In this document: in pieces, positions 2,055-39,076 of the stretch | Numbering within the stretch: the stretch's first letter is position 1 | How the letters are laid out: each line of letters starts with the position of its first letter | From: Caulobacteraceae bacterium | GTDB taxonomy: Bacteria; Pseudomonadota; Alphaproteobacteria; Caulobacterales; Caulobacteraceae | Reading direction: 5' to 3' | NCBI GenBank assembly: GCA_003164925.1 | Contig: PLRV01000059.1 | Location: 22,029 to 61,341, forward strand | Length of the DNA: 39,313 nt | Notes under the pieces: model-generated | Databases searched by the model: none | Told to the model about the DNA's origin: nothing | What the model saw: only the letters and a program-made list of their open reading frames with translations | Made by a program: the position numbers and the translations under genes

Positions 2055-3035
2055 CTAGCTGCAGGCGGCGCGGGCACGCACGTCTCGGAAACGGGCCTTG
2101 ACGGCCGTGGCGGCCTTTGCCGCATAACGGTCTTCGAACTCGGCCAAGGCGCGGCAGGCGTCGTCGGCCCGCTTCAACTCCACCAGAGAAACAGACAGGC
2201 GCACCAGGGCGTCCCCGGCCCAGGCGCTCTGGGGCCAGCCCTTGAGCGCGCGGGCGTAGGCGGCCGCCGCGTCGGCATGCAGGTTCTGCAGCGCCAAGGT
2301 GCGTCCAAGCCAGTAATTGGCCTCCGCCGCCCTGGGGCTGGTCGAATAGCGCGCCAGATAATCCTGCAGCGCCCGCGACCCTCCGGCGTAATCGCCGGTG
2401 TCGAGCACCTGGCGAGCCTGGCGATAAGCCAGAATTTCGTCAGCGGCGCCGGGCTGGTCGCCTTGATCGGGCGTTCCGGCCACGGCGCCGGGGGGCGATT
2501 GGCCCAGCACGTCGGAACCCGGCGCCGGGGTCGCGGAGGCGCCTTGGGCCGCGCCGGGCGTCTGCGACGCCTGGACCACGCCCTCCAGCTTGGAGAGTCT
2601 GGCTGTCAGATCCTGATTGGCGGCGCTGGCCTCGCCCAGCGCCTTGCGCGTCAGATCGAGGTTGTGCTGCAGGTCCTCGACCTCGCCGTTGAGGCGGCGC
2701 AGGGTCTGGTCGAAGTCGTCGATCTTGGACTGCATATCAGCCAGGGCGGGATCCGGCCCGGCGTCCTTCACCTCGACCGGGCTGCCACTCGCCTTGGCCT
2801 GCAGGACGATCTGGCGCAAGTCGCGCAACGTCTGCTCGTCGCGCTCCAGACGGCGGTCGATCCCGCGGTTGCCGCTGAGTTCGGCCGGGTCGGTGGGAGG
2901 CACAGCCCGCTGAGGGCCGGCATCCTGAGCCAAAGCGCGCGGATTTCCGGCAGCCAGGGCCAGGGCCGCGCCAAGGAAGCAGGCCCCAAGGGCGCCGGCG
3001 CTGGGCCGGCCACGCCGCTGAACAGTCTGAGTCAT
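2055..3035 (-). CDS. cpoB: Cell division coordinator CpoB (YbgF), exported TPR protein of the Tol-Pal system
   Basis: CpoB is a periplasmic TolA-binding protein that links outer-membrane constriction to peptidoglycan synthesis at the division site. The 326-residue product starts with a signal peptide (ATG at 3035, hydrophobic core GACFLGAALALAAG, cleavage near ALA-QDA). A coiled-coil region follows (roughly residues 45-150, DDFDQTLRRLNGEVEDLQHNLDL), then an Ala/Pro/Gly-rich linker. The C-terminal TPR-like domain begins near YRQARQVLDTGDYAGGSRAL and contains EANYWLGRTL. This start leaves a GGGAG ribosome-binding site about 9 nt upstream, whereas the longer frame (to 3086) would bury the signal peptide. 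It lies downstream of pal, as in other Tol-Pal clusters, and is closely followed by tilS. Confidence 0.92.
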   Translation of the reverse strand: MTQTVQRRGRPSAGALGACFLGAALALAAGNPRALAQDAGPQRAVPPTDPAELSGNRGIDRRLERDEQTLRDLRQIVLQAKASGSPVEVKDAGPDPALADMQSKIDDFDQTLRRLNGEVEDLQHNLDLTRKALGEASAANQDLTARLSKLEGVVQASQTPGAAQGASATPAPGSDVLGQSPPGAVAGTPDQGDQPGAADEILAYRQARQVLDTGDYAGGSRALQDYLARYSTSPRAAEANYWLGRTLALQNLHADAAAAYARALKGWPQSAWAGDALVRLSVSLVELKRADDACRALAEFEDRYAAKAATAVKARFRDVRARAACS

Positions 3036-3150
3036 GGATCGAGGCTCCCGGTCGAGGCTGCTTTGGGCGACTGCGTTGTAGAACAAAGGGGAGACGCCCG
3101 CCCAGCCTTGCGGCCGAACGAGCGCCTTCCCCGAGCAGAGCTTTTACGGA

Positions 3151-3226
3151 CTAGTGCGGCTTGAGATTCAGCAATTCGCTCCGCGCTCTCCACAAACCGC
3201 AGGCGAATTTCTGAATCGCCACACTA
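3151..3226. repeat. 76-bp palindromic CTAGTG-ended intergenic element, copy A
   Basis: The element starts CTAGTGCGGC and ends GCCACACTAG. The two arms are imperfect inverted repeats: GATTCAGCAATTCGC on the left pairs with GGCGAATTTCTGAATC on the right. The left arm has an extra TTGA after the first ten bases. It carries two GANTC sites, GATTC at 3165-3169 and GAATC at 3213-3217. It lies just beyond the pal stop, between pal and cpoB. A close copy is at 6630-6706. The structure resembles a MITE or REP-type element that can fold as a long hairpin. Confidence 0.8.
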
Positions 3227-3233
3227 GGCGCGC

Positions 3234-6042: not shown

Positions 6043-6534
6043 TCAGCCCGGCTTGACCGGCGGCGGCGCGGACGAGGAACCGGAGCTGGGACCGCCCGTG
6101 TCGGTGATCAGATTGATCTTAGTGAAGCCCGAGACGGACAGGGCCGCCATCACCTGGGCCACCCGCTCATAGGGGGCCTTGCCGTCGGCGCGCACATAGA
6201 TGGGCTTGTCGAAGCCGTCGCCGGCCAAGGCGTTCAACCGAACCGACAGGTCCGAGAATGGGGTCTCGACGTTCTGCAGGAAGATGCGCCCGTCCTGCTG
6301 CACGGTGATGGTCAGGGGCTGGGTCTGGTCGCTGACCGCCGCGGCCTCGGTCTTGGGCAGATCCACCGGCACGCCCACTGTCAGCAGCGGCGCCGAGATC
6401 ATGAAGATGATCAGCAGCACCAGCATCACATCCACCAGGGGCGTGACGTTGATCTCCGACAGGACCGCACGTCGCCGGCCCCCGCGCCGCCGGCGGCGGC
6501 CCGTCGCAAAGGCGTCATTGGCGGACAGGGCCAT
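6043..6534 (-). CDS. tolR: Tol-Pal system protein TolR (ExbD family)
   Basis: TolR is the small proton-channel subunit that works with TolQ to energise TolA. The 163-residue product has an Arg-rich cytoplasmic N-terminus (GRRRRRGGRRR) and a single membrane segment at about 29-52 (NVTPLVDVMLVLLIIFMISAPL). The latter includes the conserved channel Asp35. A periplasmic ExbD-type domain follows (TITVQQDGRIFLQ, YVRADGKAPYERVAQVM). It ends in a Pro/Ser-rich tail. The start codon lies only 3 bp from a 77-bp palindromic element, so tolR translation is unlikely to be directly coupled to tolQ, unlike in most tol clusters. Confidence 0.95.
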   Translation of the reverse strand: MALSANDAFATGRRRRRGGRRRAVLSEINVTPLVDVMLVLLIIFMISAPLLTVGVPVDLPKTEAAAVSDQTQPLTITVQQDGRIFLQNVETPFSDLSVRLNALAGDGFDKPIYVRADGKAPYERVAQVMAALSVSGFTKINLITDTGGPSSGSSSAPPPVKPG

Positions 6535-6537
6535 GGG

Positions 6538-6614
6538 CTAGTGTCCCGAACCAAACGTTCGCCAGCAGACGGGATCGAACGCAGGGCGAACGTCTGGTTC
6601 GACAAGGACACTAG
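6538..6614. repeat. 77-bp palindromic CTAGTG-ended element, second subfamily (copy C)
   Basis: The element begins CTAGTGTCC and ends GGACACTAG. The arms CGAACCAAACGTTCGCC and GGCGAACGTCTGGTTCG are imperfect inverted repeats. The right arm carries an extra four bases (ACAA, i.e. TTGT on the other strand) just inside the 9-bp terminal stem. The internal sequence differs from the 3151 and 6630 copies, but length, CTAGTG ends and the four-base TTGN bulge match. It sits immediately upstream of the tolR start. Confidence 0.75.
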
Positions 6615-6629
6615 CGAACGAGAATTTTT

Positions 6630-6706
6630 CTAGTGTGGCTTGAGATTCATAAATTCGCACAGCGTTCTCCATCAATCTCAGGCGAATTTCTGAATCGCCG
6701 CACTAG
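6630..6706. repeat. 77-bp palindromic CTAGTG-ended element, copy B
   Basis: This is a near copy of 3151-3226. It starts CTAGTGTGGCTTGAGATTC and ends GAATCGCCGCACTAG, with the shared internal stretch GGCGAATTTCTGAATCGCC. GANTC sites are at 6644-6648 and 6692-6696. The terminal CTAG supplies the TAG stop codon of tolQ (6703-6705 on the minus strand). Only 15 bp separate it from the 6538-6614 element. Confidence 0.8.
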
Positions 6707-7452
6707 TGCTCGCCCGTGGAGGACACGGACCGCTCGCCCAGCCGACGCGCGACCGAGGCGGCCAGGTCGTCGGCGAAGCTTTCCATCCGCCCGCTGAAAC
6801 GGCCGGCCTCGGTGGCGAACTTGTTATAGAAAATATAGGCCGGAATGGCGGCGGCCAGGCCCACGGCGGTGGTGAACAGGGCTTCGGCGATGGACGGCGC
6901 CACCACGGCAAGATTGGTGTTCTTCTGGGCCGCGATGGCCTGGAAGGCGTGCATGATGCCCCACACGGTGCCGAACAGCCCCACGAACGGCGAGGCCGTG
7001 GCGACAATGGACAGGGCGCCCAATCCCTCCTCGATGCGCCGGGACTCGCGCGAGATCATGCCGTCCATCAGCCGGTCGATGCGTTGAATCAGCAGGGCCG
7101 CCTGGCTGTCGGCGGAAGGGCCGGTCAGGCCGCCCTTGGCGCGGGCGTCCCGCCATTCCTTCAAGGCCGCCTGCAGCATGCGCGGCAGCGCCTGCCGCGG
7201 CCGCTCCCCCGCCTCGGCGGCGATGTCCTCCAGCGAGCGTCCGGAATTGACCGCCCGCTCGAACTTGTCAGCCTGATCCCCCAGCGCCGCGAAGCGGAAC
7301 AGCTTGTCGAGGATCACCGTCCACGACCACAGCGAAGCCAGGGCCAGGCCGATCAGCACCGCCTTGACCACCCAGTCGGCCCGTAAAAATACGGCGACGA
7401 TCGAAAAGCTCTGGTTTGACAGGGCGCCCGCGAGGGCGTCGGAAGCGTCCAT
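6703..7452 (-). CDS. tolQ: Tol-Pal system protein TolQ (MotA/TolQ/ExbB proton channel family)
   Basis: TolQ forms the pentameric inner-membrane scaffold of the TolQR proton channel. The 249-residue product has a first membrane segment near residues 28-47 (WVVKAVLIGLALASLWSWTV). Two further membrane segments lie in the C-terminal half, including ALSIVATASPFVGLFGTVWGI and EALFTTAVGLAAAIPAYIFY, the conserved MotA/TolQ signatures. The ATG at 7452 has TTGGAGC about 7 nt upstream. A longer frame to 7536 would have no better signal. Its TAG stop lies inside the palindromic element at 6630-6706. A 168-bp gap holding two such elements separates it from tolR. The upstream gene is ybgC, 59 bp away. Confidence 0.95.
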   Translation of the reverse strand: MDASDALAGALSNQSFSIVAVFLRADWVVKAVLIGLALASLWSWTVILDKLFRFAALGDQADKFERAVNSGRSLEDIAAEAGERPRQALPRMLQAALKEWRDARAKGGLTGPSADSQAALLIQRIDRLMDGMISRESRRIEEGLGALSIVATASPFVGLFGTVWGIMHAFQAIAAQKNTNLAVVAPSIAEALFTTAVGLAAAIPAYIFYNKFATEAGRFSGRMESFADDLAASVARRLGERSVSSTGEH

Positions 7453-7511
7453 TGGCTGCTCCAAGCTCGGGTATGACGGCGGTCTGGCTGTGCCCCACCG
7501 TTTGGGTGAAA

Positions 7512-7967
7512 CTAAGGCGTCTCCTGCAAGAACCAAGCCTTCAAGGCCTCGCTCAAGGCCTGCGGCGGACGACGCGGACGCCCGTCCAATCCTATGCAGA
7601 CGATGGTTTCGGCGGCGCGCGCAATGATTTCCCCGTTGCGTTCAAGGCTTTGGCGCACATGCAGGCGCGCGCGCTCCATGCGCTCGTATTCAGTGCGCAC
7701 AACCAAGGCATCGTCGATGCGCGCAGGCTTGACGAAATCGATCTCCATCCGCGCCACCACGAAGGCCATCGGGTCATCCAACGCGCGCAGCTCCGTGTGA
7801 CTGATGCCGGTCAGTCGCAGGAACTCCGAACGACCGCGCTCGAAATAGCGCAGGTAGTTGGCGTGATAGACCACCCCCGTAAAGTCCGTATCCTCGTAGT
7901 AGACCCGTACCGGCAAAAGGTGCGCCTTGCCGTCGAATACCCCTGACGGGGGAACAGGCGCGGTCAT
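7512..7967 (-). CDS. ybgC: Acyl-CoA thioesterase YbgC (Tol-Pal-associated, 4-hydroxybenzoyl-CoA thioesterase family)
   Basis: YbgC is a cytoplasmic hot-dog-fold thioesterase that hydrolyses acyl-CoA, and its gene typically starts the tol-pal cluster. The 151-residue product carries the family signature [20 protein letters not shown] at residues 23-42, with the DTD catalytic motif at 26-28. It then has the expected [14 protein letters not shown] strand region. Its start overlaps the ruvB stop as ATGA, which places the ruv genes and the tol genes in one transcriptional string. Its physiological substrate in alphaproteobacteria is not evident from sequence. Confidence 0.94.
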
Positions 7968-9001
7968 GAGTCCTCGCCTTCATCGAACAAGGTCGTCTGT
8001 CCGGGCCGCTGCGGCGGGGCGCTCAGGCCCAGGTGCAGATAGGCCCGGGCGGCGGCCATACGGCCGCGCGGCGTACGCTGGATGAACCCCTGCTGCAGCA
8101 GGAACGGCTCAATGACGTCCTCCACCGCGTCGCGCGCCTCCGCGATCGCATAGGCCAAGGTCTCCACTCCGGCCGGGCCGCCGCCATAGTTCTCGATCAG
8201 GGCCCTCAGATAGCGCCGGTCCAGGCTATCCAGCCCCGCCTCGTCCACCTCCAGCCGGGCCAGGGCGCGGGCGGCTTCCAGCTGGCCGATGGGCGAAGCT
8301 CCCTCCGCCTCGGCGAAGTCGCGCACCCGACGCAGCAGCCGGCCGGCCACGCGCGGGGTGCCTCGGGCGCGGGCGGCGATCTCGGACGCGCCTGTGGCGG
8401 TCAGGTCCACGCCCATCTTGCGCGCGGCCTGGCTGAGCACCCGCTGCAGTTCCGCCGGGGTATAGAACTCCAGACGCAGGGGGATGCCGAACCGGTCTCG
8501 CAGGGGCGTGGCCAGCATGCCGGCCCGGGTGGTGGCCGCCACCAGGGTGAAGGGCGAAAGATCGATGCGAACCGAGCGGGCCGACGGTCCGTCGCCGATG
8601 ATTAGATCCAACACATGGTCCTCCATGGCCGGATAGAGAATCTCTTCCACGGCCGGCGCCAGGCGGTGGATCTCGTCGATGAACAGAACGTCGCGCGGCT
8701 CCAGATTGGTCAGGATCGCCGCCAGGTCTCCGGCCTTGGCCAACACCGGGCCGGAGGTGGCGCGGAAGTTCACCCCCAGCTCGCGCGCCACGATCTGGGC
8801 CAGGGTGGTCTTGCCCAGGCCCGGCGGCCCGAACAGCAGCACATGGTCCAGGGCCTCGCCGCGCCCGCGCGCGGCCTCGATGAATACCTTCAGATTGGCC
8901 TTGGACTGCTCCTGGCCAACGAACTCCGCCAAGGTTTGCGGCCGAAGCGCCCGGTCGGCGCCCTCGAAGGCGGCCGGCTCGCCCGACACCAGCCGGCTCA
9001 C
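7964..9001 (-). CDS. ruvB: Holliday junction branch-migration ATPase RuvB
   Basis: RuvB is the AAA+ motor that drives branch migration of Holliday junctions together with RuvA. The 345-residue product has Walker A GPPGLGKT (58-65), Walker B DEIH (109-112) and the sensor/arginine-finger stretch [17 protein letters not shown]. The winged-helix DNA-binding domain is at the C-terminus ([16 protein letters not shown]). The start is GTG, overlapping the ruvA stop as GTGA. Length is typical for the family. The ruvC-ruvA-ruvB-ybgC frames overlap by four bases at each junction. Confidence 0.97.
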
Positions 9002-35246: not shown

Positions 35247-35672
35247 CTAGGGCTGCGCGAGGGCCTGCCCTCGATCATGCGCCGACGGCGGCGGCCGGGG
35301 GGCATCGCGCCCAAGGCCTGCGATCAAACTCTCAAGTTGCGCGACCAGATTCGCCGCCGGGCAAGGCTTGGTCTGGACGATCAGCCCTGAAAAGCGCGCT
35401 TTCAGGGCCGGCGGGAGATCCACCGCCGTGTGGACTATGAAGGGGATGTCGAGACCCATGAGAACCTCCACCACGGCCGAACAGTCCCCATCCACCAGGT
35501 TTACGTCCAGGATCGCGGCGCCTACGGTCCCAGTCGCAAGCAAGGCCAGGGTTTCCTCGCCACTCGCGGCCGGACCGACGACTTTTCCGCCGGCGTCCTC
35601 CACGGCGAGCGCCAAGTCCAAGGCAATGAAGGACTCATCCTCGGCCACGAGGACTGATACGTGGTTCAGCAA
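35247..35672 (-). CDS. Single-domain response regulator
   Basis: The product is about 141 residues and consists of a single receiver domain: VLVAEDESFIALDLALAVEDAGG with the acidic pair, phosphoacceptor Asp56 in AAILDVNLVDGD, the Thr in IVHTAVD and Lys in VQTKPCP. There is no output domain, so it probably acts by protein contact or phosphotransfer. I recognise the type as the usual partner of HWE kinases. The start is uncertain: no ATG exists near the domain, and TTG at 35672 starts just before it. A TTG at 35756 would overlap the kinase gene. It lies 49 bp after the kinase gene. Confidence 0.85.
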   Translation of the reverse strand: MLNHVSVLVAEDESFIALDLALAVEDAGGKVVGPAASGEETLALLATGTVGAAILDVNLVDGDCSAVVEVLMGLDIPFIVHTAVDLPPALKARFSGLIVQTKPCPAANLVAQLESLIAGLGRDAPRPPPSAHDRGQALAQP

Positions 35673-35721
35673 TGAAGTTGCCCCGGCGCGAGGTTCGGGA
35701 ATGTTGGATAAGGGTAAGCCC

Positions 35722-36897
35722 TCAAAGGGCCAAGCGTTCCAAGTCCGCCGAAACAAAAACGACCAACCCGGTAGGATTCCAGTTGAAATTCAGGTCGCCG
35801 CGGAGCCAGCCGCTGACGCTTCTGCGGGCTAATACGCTGCCGAAGCCCTCCCGCTCGGGCGGACCCCCGATCACGGGTCCGTCCTTCTCTTCCCACGAGA
35901 GAGCGAGGCGCCCCTTGGCCACCGCCCACGAAATGTGGACGCGCCCGCCGGGGACCGAGAGGGCGCCGTACTTGGCCGCGTTCGTCGCCAACTCATGCAC
36001 GACGAGCGCGACGTTTGTGGCGGCCTCGGCGCCGACCGCAATCTCCGGACCGTCGATCTCGGTGCGTATGCTGTCGCCGGTTCCTGCCGGACCGGCATAA
36101 GGCGAGAGAACCTTTCGGATCAGTTCGTCCAAGGTGGTTTCCGGCTTGGTGGCCTCGGCGCCTGAATGCCCCGGCCTGATCAACTGGTGCGCGCTGGCGA
36201 GCGCGCCGAGCCGGCCTTGAACGGTCGCGGCCAGTTCCTTGGGTGTGATCGCCGATCTGGCGCTCAACGTCACCATTCCCCCGACGATGGCAAACAGGTT
36301 CTTGACCCGGTGATCCATCTCCTTGAGGAGCAGCTCCTGCTGTTCCTCATGATGTTTGCGCTCGGTGATGTCGACAAAGCTATTGATGGCCCCGGTGATT
36401 TCTCCGCGCTGGTTCTTCACAGGACGGATATTCACGAGCGCGGCAATCCGCGTGCCGTCGGGCCGCTCGATGTGGACTTCCACGTCCCGCGCCTCCGGTA
36501 TCGCGCCGCTCAACACGTCGGCCATGGGACACTGCTCATGGGGCACATGGCGGCCATCCGGCCGGAACATTTTGTACGAGCCACAAAACCGATCGTTGTT
36601 GTCCGCTAATGCCGGCTCGCGCCCCCACAGTTCGGCGGCGCGGCGGTTGAAATCCTGAATCACGCCTGAGGCGTGGCAGGAATAGATGGCCACGGGCCCC
36701 ATCTCGAACAGGGCGCGATAGCGTTCTTCGCTTTCGTGTAGCGTCGCCTCCACCAGCTTGCGCTCGGTGATTTCGCGTTGCAGTTTGGAGTTCAACGCGT
36801 CGGTGACATCGACGAGTTCTTGCTGGCGCAGCGAACTGAGGATCAGCGCCTCGTTCACCGCGACCGTATTCTTACGAAACTGCGTGGCTTCAGTCAT
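35722..36897 (-). CDS. PAS-domain HWE-family sensor histidine kinase
   Basis: The 391-residue product has no membrane segment. An N-terminal coiled coil (about 16-60, LSSLRQQELVDVTDALNSKLQREITERKLVEATL) precedes a PAS domain with PAC motif (about 57-180, RYRALFEMGPVAIYSCHASGVIQDFNRRAAELWG ... VDITERK). An HWE kinase core follows: phospho-His in KEMDHRVKNLFAIV (His196), N box HELATNAAKYGALS (301-314) and the defining WE in ALSWEEKDGP (335-336). It has ATG at 36897 and ends before the response regulator, forming a two-component pair. It is downstream of kaiC with a 198-bp gap. Confidence 0.93.
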   Translation of the reverse strand: MTEATQFRKNTVAVNEALILSSLRQQELVDVTDALNSKLQREITERKLVEATLHESEERYRALFEMGPVAIYSCHASGVIQDFNRRAAELWGREPALADNNDRFCGSYKMFRPDGRHVPHEQCPMADVLSGAIPEARDVEVHIERPDGTRIAALVNIRPVKNQRGEITGAINSFVDITERKHHEEQQELLLKEMDHRVKNLFAIVGGMVTLSARSAITPKELAATVQGRLGALASAHQLIRPGHSGAEATKPETTLDELIRKVLSPYAGPAGTGDSIRTEIDGPEIAVGAEAATNVALVVHELATNAAKYGALSVPGGRVHISWAVAKGRLALSWEEKDGPVIGGPPEREGFGSVLARRSVSGWLRGDLNFNWNPTGLVVFVSADLERLAL

Positions 36898-37095: not shown

Positions 37096-38667
37096 CTATT
37101 TCTTAGCCTTCGGCTCCGGAGAGGCTTCGGTTTTTTGCGGCGGGCTCGGCCCGGTTCGCGTGGGAATTCCTGTGGTCAGTCCGTTGTAGTCCGTGGATCG
37201 CGGCTGGATGACGACCACGCCCTTGTCCGTGATGACATACTCGCGGATGTCTTTGCTATGATTGCCGCCGCGCATCTTGATCACGACCATAACCTTCCGA
37301 AGCTGGCCGTCGATTTCCACATAGCGCATCCTGATGATGTCATCGGTCAGGAACGAGATCGTGTAGTGGCTAAAGGAAAACCCGGTAAATGAATCCTCCA
37401 CTTCGACCGTACTGAGAATTGTGACCCCGGCTCCCGTCAACGCCACGATCAGCCGGTACAGCGACTCGCGAAAGTCCTCGCGAAAGCCGGGCGCCAGCGC
37501 CATCTCAAGACTGACCAGCGAATCGATCACCAGACGTTTCGCGCCGACCCTTTCGACGGCGTCGAGAATCTCTTGCATGATTTCATCCACCGACAGGTCG
37601 AGCGGACGAAGGTAGATGATTTCCAGATTTCCCTTTTCTTGCGGCGCCTTCAAATTCAATCCAAAACTGTCGGCGCGATCAGTGTAGCCTTTGGGCCGTT
37701 CTTCGAAGATCGCCATGATCGCCGGTTCGCCATTGCGCAGTCCCGCGGCGATAAATTGCGTGGCCAGCGCCGTTTTGCCCGTCCCCGAGGGCCCGGCGAT
37801 GAGCAGGCTGTCGCCTTCGAGAACGCCCCCGCCCATCATCTTATCCAATTCGGGAATGCCCATGGAAAGCCGCCGGCGTGCGGCCGGCTTTCTATGCTTG
37901 AGGACGAATCCCAGCGTGCGCGAGAAGGCTTGCAACCCGTCGTCGTTGATGCGGACGGTGTGCAATCCCGGCACCGAGCCAGTCCCGCGCACTTTCAAGA
38001 TTTGCAGTTTTCGCACCACGGAATTTCTTTCCACCTTCTGCGACAGCCAAAAGAGGCCGTCGGCGATGGTGAACAACGGATTCCCGCGGGTCTCTTCCTC
38101 AGCAAATTCGCCAACCAGAAATGTCGTGGCTTCCCAACTGGTCAGAAACTGGGTGAGTTGCTGAATGAACGACCTCATCTCCATTTCGCCGGCGGCGGTG
38201 TTCATCTTACTCATCACGGTCCGAAAAGAATCCACCACCACGATGCCCGGATTTGTCGCCGTGACTTGCTTGATGATTTCAGCAAGGACCGCATCCAAAT
38301 CTTGATGCAACACTTGGTCGCTCAGATTGATGAAGCGGACGGCCTTGCCCAACTTGGATCCGTCGAAGAAGGAAAATTGTTGCTGGTAGCGCAACATTTT
38401 TATGGCGGGCTCGCCGAGGACGGTGAAAAAGAGCGCGGGCTTTTCCTCCGTCGCGTTGGCGAAAACGATCTGATGGGCCATCGTGGTCTTGCCGCAACCG
38501 GGCCGGCCGGCGATGACGTTGAACGAAAATTCCGGGATGCCGCCGCCCAGGATTTCGTCGAGGCCGCGAACGCCGGTCGGCAGTTTGCGAATCGCGACCT
38601 TTGCCGGCTGGGTTGCGGCGCTTTTCGTCAGTTTGCGGCTAGCCGAGGCGCTAGGTTTTTTTGCCAT
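37096..38667 (-). CDS. kaiC: KaiC-like double-domain ATPase
   Basis: KaiC is the ATPase/autokinase of the circadian oscillator in cyanobacteria. Relatives in other bacteria pair with kinases or KaiB-type partners. The 523-residue product has two RecA-type domains. CI has Walker A GRPGCGKT (54-61) and GIVVVDSFR. CII has Walker A GPSGTGKT (292-299), catalytic EE (322-323) in AIFEERPKG, and KRLVIDSLVS. The CI counterpart of the catalytic Glu pair is FTVLGEP (81-87), so CI activity may be altered. In CII the phosphosite region reads TISFLTDDIIRMRYVEI, keeping the Ser (438) but with Phe in place of the adjacent Thr. The C-terminal tail is Pro/Lys-rich. It starts 1 bp after the upstream small gene. 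Codon use is more A/T-rich than in the flanking core genes. Confidence 0.92.
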   Translation of the reverse strand: MAKKPSASASRKLTKSAATQPAKVAIRKLPTGVRGLDEILGGGIPEFSFNVIAGRPGCGKTTMAHQIVFANATEEKPALFFTVLGEPAIKMLRYQQQFSFFDGSKLGKAVRFINLSDQVLHQDLDAVLAEIIKQVTATNPGIVVVDSFRTVMSKMNTAAGEMEMRSFIQQLTQFLTSWEATTFLVGEFAEEETRGNPLFTIADGLFWLSQKVERNSVVRKLQILKVRGTGSVPGLHTVRINDDGLQAFSRTLGFVLKHRKPAARRRLSMGIPELDKMMGGGVLEGDSLLIAGPSGTGKTALATQFIAAGLRNGEPAIMAIFEERPKGYTDRADSFGLNLKAPQEKGNLEIIYLRPLDLSVDEIMQEILDAVERVGAKRLVIDSLVSLEMALAPGFREDFRESLYRLIVALTGAGVTILSTVEVEDSFTGFSFSHYTISFLTDDIIRMRYVEIDGQLRKVMVVIKMRGGNHSKDIREYVITDKGVVVIQPRSTDYNGLTTGIPTRTGPSPPQKTEASPEPKAKK

Positions 38668-38668
38668 G

Positions 38669-39076
38669 TCAATCTTCCGGGCCCAGCTCCAAGTCGTTGA
38701 TATTACTCAACAACTGCAGCGTTAAATCTTCACCAATGAAAGTCACCAGAAGTCCGAGCAACCGGTCGAGCAGAACAACCCCACCATTAGATATCTCTTC
38801 CGGGTTCGCTTGGGCCTCAAGTTCGTCCAGCCCTTCGAAAGTGCCGTCTTCTCTGACACGCAGGTCGCGCAGCCAAGCAACTTCCGGGTAGGCCAGCACG
38901 AGGGCGCGCGAAATGAGGGCGCGAAAACCGGCGGCGCCCATGAGCGCGCCAAAATGTGGACTCAACTTCTCTATGACGACAAAGGCCGCCGTAGAGTTGG
39001 AAGACGTATTTCGGCCCATCTCATAGGCGATAAGGCGTTCAGCGTAGATACGCAGCTTCGGCGTAGCTCGGTTCAT
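38669..39076 (-). CDS. Small protein of unknown function encoded directly upstream of kaiC
   Basis: The 135-residue soluble product is predicted mostly helical (KLRIYAERLIAYE, AAFVVIEKLSPHFGALMGAAGFRALISRALVLAYPEVAWL). It has a charged middle (DGTFEGLDELEAQANPEEISNGG) and a hydrophobic C-terminal helix LLDRLLGLLVTFIGEDLTLQLLSNI. It is not KaiB-like: no thioredoxin-type beta1 or KaiB C-terminal pattern. Its stop codon is one base before the kaiC start, so it is very probably co-translated with KaiC and may be a KaiC partner or regulator. This is inference from gene order only. I do not recognise a named domain. Confidence 0.8.
   Translation of the reverse strand: MNRATPKLRIYAERLIAYEMGRNTSSNSTAAFVVIEKLSPHFGALMGAAGFRALISRALVLAYPEVAWLRDLRVREDGTFEGLDELEAQANPEEISNGGVVLLDRLLGLLVTFIGEDLTLQLLSNINDLELGPED

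Follow-up and report, generated by a model that had tools for sequence, protein, structure and literature searches.

The cyanobacterial KaiABC-SasA-RpaA clock consists of a KaiC ATPase with a kinase and a receiver as its output. Outside cyanobacteria KaiC is widespread and often lies beside kinases. The distribution of KaiC and KaiB has been described by Schmelling et al. 2017 (PMC5520375). In the account of gene contexts given by De Luca et al. 2011 (PMC3164672), kaiC genes fall into three groups, of which the second lacks KaiB and has kinases with a specific KaiC-interacting N-terminus (RtaNt), and the third is more diverse; a figure legend lists SF and AF among the phosphosite types of the third group. 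The same article proposes that KaiC-kinase operons without KaiB could be hourglass timers. With such operons already described there, a lack of KaiB is in itself no surprise.

The stretch of DNA analyzed here, referred to below as the window, comprises 39,313 nucleotides of a Caulobacteraceae genome (G000; 3.4 Mb in 100 contigs, 99.42% complete). Its relevant features are collected in Table 1; loci and genomes are referred to by L and G numbers. As the original prediction held, a small gene ends one base ahead of the kaiC ATG on the same strand, the kaiC product is a KaiC-like ATPase (PF06745, E 2.3e-75, in two stretches) and the small protein has no recognized domain, with no Pfam or NCBIfam family matching up to E 10. 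The kaiC stop is separated by 198 bases from a PAS-HWE histidine kinase gene. Neither this kinase nor the receiver beyond it (PF00072, E 1.4e-5, 25.6 bits, under the cut-off of 30.2) had been mentioned in the prediction. KaiB (PF07689) had no match in the whole window genome, so that its reported absence extends well beyond the window, and what follows the small gene is a KaiC-kinase operon without KaiB. The locus resembles the cyanobacterial clock in having a KaiC ATPase with a kinase and a receiver as presumed output, but differs from it in the lack of a KaiB match, in the loss of the phosphosite pair and in the kinase, where Pfam found no KaiB-like domain. It is closer to the second and third contexts of De Luca et al. 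2011 (PMC3164672), in which KaiC lies beside a histidine kinase, receiver or GGDEF protein without KaiB and the phosphosites are poorly conserved. Unlike the window, the text on these contexts names no dedicated small upstream protein, although 'HP' in the legend to figure S6 could include one.

Table 1. Features of the kaiC locus in the window.
Feature	Positions	Strand	Source
Small gene, 135 aa, ATG start, no known family	38669..39076	minus	ORF list
kaiC-like gene, 523 aa, ATG start, two KaiC ATPase domains, both Walker A motifs	37096..38667	minus	ORF list and Pfam
Histidine kinase, 391 aa: N-terminal segment common to other module kinases, PAS, HWE histidine kinase	35722..36897	minus	ORF list and Pfam
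Receiver (response regulator), 35-base overlap with kinase end, start codon unsure	35247..35756	minus	PF00072
Clade motif in first KaiC domain, within FFTVLGEPAIKMLRYQQQF; the KaiB-linked KaiC of L053 has Glu-Glu there	38374..38430	minus	Alignment
Position of the KaiC phosphosite pair, Ser-Phe here	37351..37356	minus	Alignment to solved KaiC and clade comparison
Module extent by DNA similarity to gammaproteobacterial locus L011	35264..39154		DNA comparison

The window small protein was scanned against a contig set of 84,980 species, each represented by one genome. This gave 221 pattern matches and five confirmed loci, in records named as a Phenylobacterium MAG, a gammaproteobacterial bog MAG, Polymorphobacter glacialis, a betaproteobacterial MAG and a Verrucomicrobia MAG. 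The same kaiC lies directly downstream in all five (74-94% identity in the best segments), and a kinase gene follows it. A single plasmid record, from Paracoccus liaowanqingii, matched the small gene directly; here the small gene, kaiC, an HWE kinase and a receiver are flanked by transposase genes. Three Caballeronia plasmids with the small gene were reached via a KaiC search, and therefore what they test is whether a clade KaiC comes with the small gene, and not whether the small gene comes with that KaiC. Within taxonomic samples the gene was found in 1 of 385 genomes of the same class and, with a single-protein query, in 1 of 101 relatives, this being the window genome itself in both cases. 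A profile search of the same phylum matched 7 of 398 genomes, four of which, including the window genome, were accepted; samples from the order of G782 and the phylum of G831 gave 2 of 135 and 4 of 145 matching genomes, with G782 and G831 included in these counts.

Counted once each, 17 small-gene loci were accepted, and 16 of them (16 of 20 if three rejected candidates are taken as true) place the gene immediately ahead of a kaiC that belongs to one distinct clade. Wide occurrence without kaiC neighbors, which was to count against a partnership, was thus not seen among the loci sampled. All members of this clade that were examined have the small gene a short distance ahead of kaiC, whole in 15 of the loci and shortened in one. 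In 13 of the 16 the kaiC ATG lies from -4 to +4 bases from the stop of the small gene; for the remaining L013, L014 and L051 the candidate kaiC starts are further away, from -37 to +16. The shortened copy is that of L033 (G663, 7047-7328, minus), in which only the C-terminal half of the small gene is left, with a four-base overlap into an open kaiC, so that the protein in its full form may be dispensable.

The three rejected candidates had no KaiC in the fetched stretches. L034 (G808, E 9.8e-5; E 0.003 with a larger profile) and L036 (G745, E 0.009) are long frames that look composition-biased, and L035 (G751, E 0.007) is a short frame with two stops; the last two were missing with the larger profile.

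The association was also followed from the side of KaiC. A KaiC at E 1e-80 or better is present in 4 of the 398 genomes, and these are the same four that have an accepted small gene, the two 398-genome samples being taken as one set since their handles and listed rows agree; three KaiC candidates were scored per genome, so a clade KaiC could be missed. Plasmid KaiC matched 277 records. Among the 60 matches listed, the small gene lies upstream at all four of 46% identity or above, and it is absent at three inspected matches of about 30% identity. The small-protein profile also had no match at any of eight ordinary kaiC loci examined (L018, L019, L023, L040, L041, L053, L060 and L061). Three of these, L053 (G828), L060 (G1033) and L061 (G1044), are an ordinary second KaiC inside genomes that carry the module; the KaiC proteins of L060 and L061 are 28-29% identical to that of the window. 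In the window genome itself, other PF06745-like matches are ORFs on contig C16, which read by eye as RadA/Sms and DnaB, and one more on C90.

The gene pair is real, conserved and mobile, and is a variant of the known KaiC-kinase modules. The explanation that we favor, with fair but by no means full confidence, is a horizontally transferred KaiC signaling module in which the small protein is a dedicated, co-translated partner of KaiC that relays the state of KaiC to the kinase. The small protein would be made together with KaiC and would bind its hexamer in a regulatory role; changes in the complex that depend on nucleotide would then switch the neighboring kinase, and the kinase would signal on through the receiver. 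Made up of kaiC, the small gene and usually a sensor kinase, without KaiB, the module is probably a KaiC-driven signaling switch and not a clock.

The horizontal part of this explanation draws on several observations. DNA of the window and of L011 is 88% and 85% identical in two blocks running from 39154 to 35264, and between the blocks L011 has about 360 bases, a PAS-sized stretch, that are absent in the window. Accordingly sized proteins are encoded: the window kinase lacks, at 36355-36374, a PAS-sized internal stretch found in the kinases of L011 and L012 (391 against 518 aa). The small gene has a GC content of 0.556 and kaiC one of 0.575, compared with 0.668 in window bases 1-35000. Relatives occur in several classes and on plasmids, in records titled Phenylobacterium, Polymorphobacter, Gammaproteobacteria, Betaproteobacteria and Verrucomicrobia. 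Base composition, DNA identity and the scatter of hosts together point to transfer of the module as a unit. Co-transfer as an operon speaks for a functional linkage, not for binding.

One accepted locus departs from this arrangement. In L052 (G1059) a 129-aa relative of the small gene lies directly after a gene for a 1122-aa PAS-GAF-HisKA-receiver hybrid kinase, and there is no KaiC in the 15-kb stretch. The only PF06745 match in the G1059 genome (E 1.9e-4) belongs to a protein that reads like RecA, so by sequence this genome is without KaiC. The L052 protein is 18% identical to the window small protein; against a small-protein profile built without it the match has E 2.3e-6, with an hhalign probability of 92%. 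Thirty genomes around G1059 contained no small gene except in G1059 itself. A short ORF is also present just before the hybrid kinase (L052:2662-3231), and its tested part, 2824-3228, had no Pfam or NCBIfam match.

L052 would fit equally well a small protein that serves the histidine kinase, as adaptor or sensor subunit, and is tied to kaiC only via a shared operon. A kinase or GGDEF-kinase gene does follow kaiC on the same strand in 14 of the 16 kaiC-linked loci (assigned by Pfam in ten and by similarity or annotation in L010, L011, L021 and L051), and signaling genes can precede the small gene too: the gene just ahead of it in L021 carries a CHASE3-domain protein annotation, and L011 has a hybrid kinase-like ORF whose end lies about 0.7 kb upstream of the small gene. 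However, in the 16 loci the small gene stands directly before kaiC, with the module's own kinase beyond kaiC, and in L022 and L033 no same-strand kinase was seen after kaiC (L033 being judged by eye, not by Pfam). The kinase type, moreover, changes between HWE, HisKA with or without a receiver, and GGDEF with HisKA, while the small gene and kaiC stay constant, which argues for KaiC as the partner. L052 is itself one locus of low identity. We regard a kinase partner as rather unlikely on this evidence, and return to a partner of KaiC as the preferred reading.

A segment of the window kinase N-terminus is common to eight kinases of seven other loci (L010, L011, L012, L013, L014, L050, in both of its kinases, and L051) at E 1e-7 or better. 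Weak matches (E 0.1 to 1) were obtained in L016, L020 and L032, and none in the kinases of L021, L031 and L045; nor did a 51-aa copy of the segment match anything when plasmids were searched. On the Caballeronia plasmid of L020 the output protein (6506-8125) combines GGDEF and histidine kinase domains, and its L021 counterpart is annotated as a diguanylate cyclase. In view of this fusion, the L020 module may feed cyclic-di-GMP signaling.

Sequence analysis of KaiC set the clade apart from other KaiC proteins. In the KaiC tree, which has long branches, the 13 clade rows are separated on a long branch with support of 89/95; L010, L014 and L022 were left out of it as their kaiC frames are interrupted in the records, which may be decay or assembly error. 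All 13 clade rows keep both Walker A motifs (GRPGCGKTT and GPSGTGKTA in the window). Of the motifs in the first KaiC domain, YQQQ is found in all 13 and LGEP in 12, L045 being different, and both motifs are missing in the six other KaiC rows compared as well as in L060 and L061. The window KaiC scored below the circadian KaiC equivalogs of NCBIfam (171.1 of 546.25 bits for TIGR02655 and 268.9 of 408 bits for NF006799). A loss of the catalytic Glu in the first domain was considered and dropped: the alignment can be read either as replacement of Glu-Glu or as insertion of one residue that leaves one Glu in place, and a single Glu is also found in four of the six comparison rows.

The phosphosites differ as well. 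In place of the adjacent Ser-Thr of canonical clock KaiC, a pair that we take to be S431/T432 in the numbering of Synechococcus KaiC, the window has Ser-Phe. All 13 clade rows have Phe at the second site, so that a phosphorylation clock is unlikely for this clade; the first site is Ser in seven rows, Ala in five and Cys in one. Loss of the pair would leave the module working as a switch or sensor that depends on ATP, rather than as a clock run by phosphorylation. This bears on the second alternative, that the module is an hourglass timer in which the small protein acts on a phosphorylation cycle in the manner of KaiA or KaiB. Hourglass timing has been proposed as a possibility for KaiC-kinase operons without KaiB, and the window KaiC does keep Ser at the first site. 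Set against this are the invariant Phe, the Ala or Cys at the first site in 6 of the 13 rows, and the view stated in De Luca et al. 2011 (PMC3164672) that a KaiC unable to phosphorylate two residues probably fails to sustain cyclic timing. A timer of this kind is accordingly very improbable. Also very improbable is a small protein that only aids KaiC folding or assembly and has no signaling role: the tight gene coupling just upstream of kaiC and a short protein, helical by prediction, would suit a folding aid, but it does not accompany the other eight two-domain KaiC genes examined.

If the small protein is a partner of KaiC, it may be asked how it relates to KaiB. The search that found no KaiB in the window genome matched 6 of 14 control genomes, Synechococcus elongatus among them, with one match over the cut-off. 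Of 13 carrier genomes or records covered (G856, G1033, G1044 and G1059 not among them), KaiB was matched in G828 only, which by genomes is one of nine. On contig C70 of G828 (L053), the KaiB gene is immediately preceded by a different kaiC and followed by a 918-aa gene taken for a kinase. The L053 KaiC is 26% identical to the window KaiC; its residues at the canonical positions are Ser-Thr and Glu-Glu, both of which are lacking in the clade KaiC of the same genome. KaiB is therefore found next to the other KaiC, and two KaiC types with two different neighbors are present in one genome. Such non-cyanobacterial KaiB-KaiC operons resemble the module in combining KaiC, a small partner gene and a large gene downstream; they differ in that the partner is another protein and is placed after kaiC. 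In the clade KaiC a first-domain loop, which is presumably the KaiB-binding loop, is about five residues shorter than in five of the six comparison rows and is also shorter than in solved KaiC, with L018 being short too. This would fit loss of the KaiB docking loop.

The small protein itself does not look like KaiB. It has no sequence match to the KaiB family (PF07689) by Pfam up to E 10, and AlphaFold2 with six sequences predicted six helices and one short beta hairpin (mean pLDDT 80.7, pTM 0.74). KaiB has a thioredoxin-like alpha/beta fold. The predicted helical bundle, compared without direct superposition, is not of that type, which argues that the small protein is not KaiB-like; no clear match to the model was found among solved structures. 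Conservation of the C-terminal helix, which had been anticipated, is evident from G115 and L118, invariant in 16 of 16 aligned rows including the window. No description of the family was recognized in the literature searched, which excludes most subscription journals and figures. The proposal that this protein replaces KaiB as a partner of KaiC thus stands in part: its tie to kaiC in 16 of 17 loci and the lack of a KaiB match in eight of nine carrier genomes make the partnership plausible and better founded than before, but the predicted fold is not that of a KaiB-like protein. As a KaiC partner the small protein would take on the role of KaiB without sharing its descent or fold.

A more far-reaching version of the partner reading is possible, and we advance it tentatively. 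It would be a KaiB-free Kai module in which a helical protein takes the place of KaiB as regulatory subunit, the clade KaiC, having no phosphorylation cycle, is purely an ATP-driven switch for the kinase, and the three genes have spread together between phyla. Since the partner gene is tied to one KaiC clade, it offers a small testable system of three expressible proteins. If the small protein does bind KaiC, there would be a second and unrelated way of reading or setting the KaiC state.

On plasmid p2 of Caballeronia sp. Sq4a (L041:3625-5476) a kaiC-kinase pair was likewise seen to be coupled with a small gene: here a 120-aa gene annotated as a HigA-family antitoxin overlaps an ordinary kaiC from upstream.
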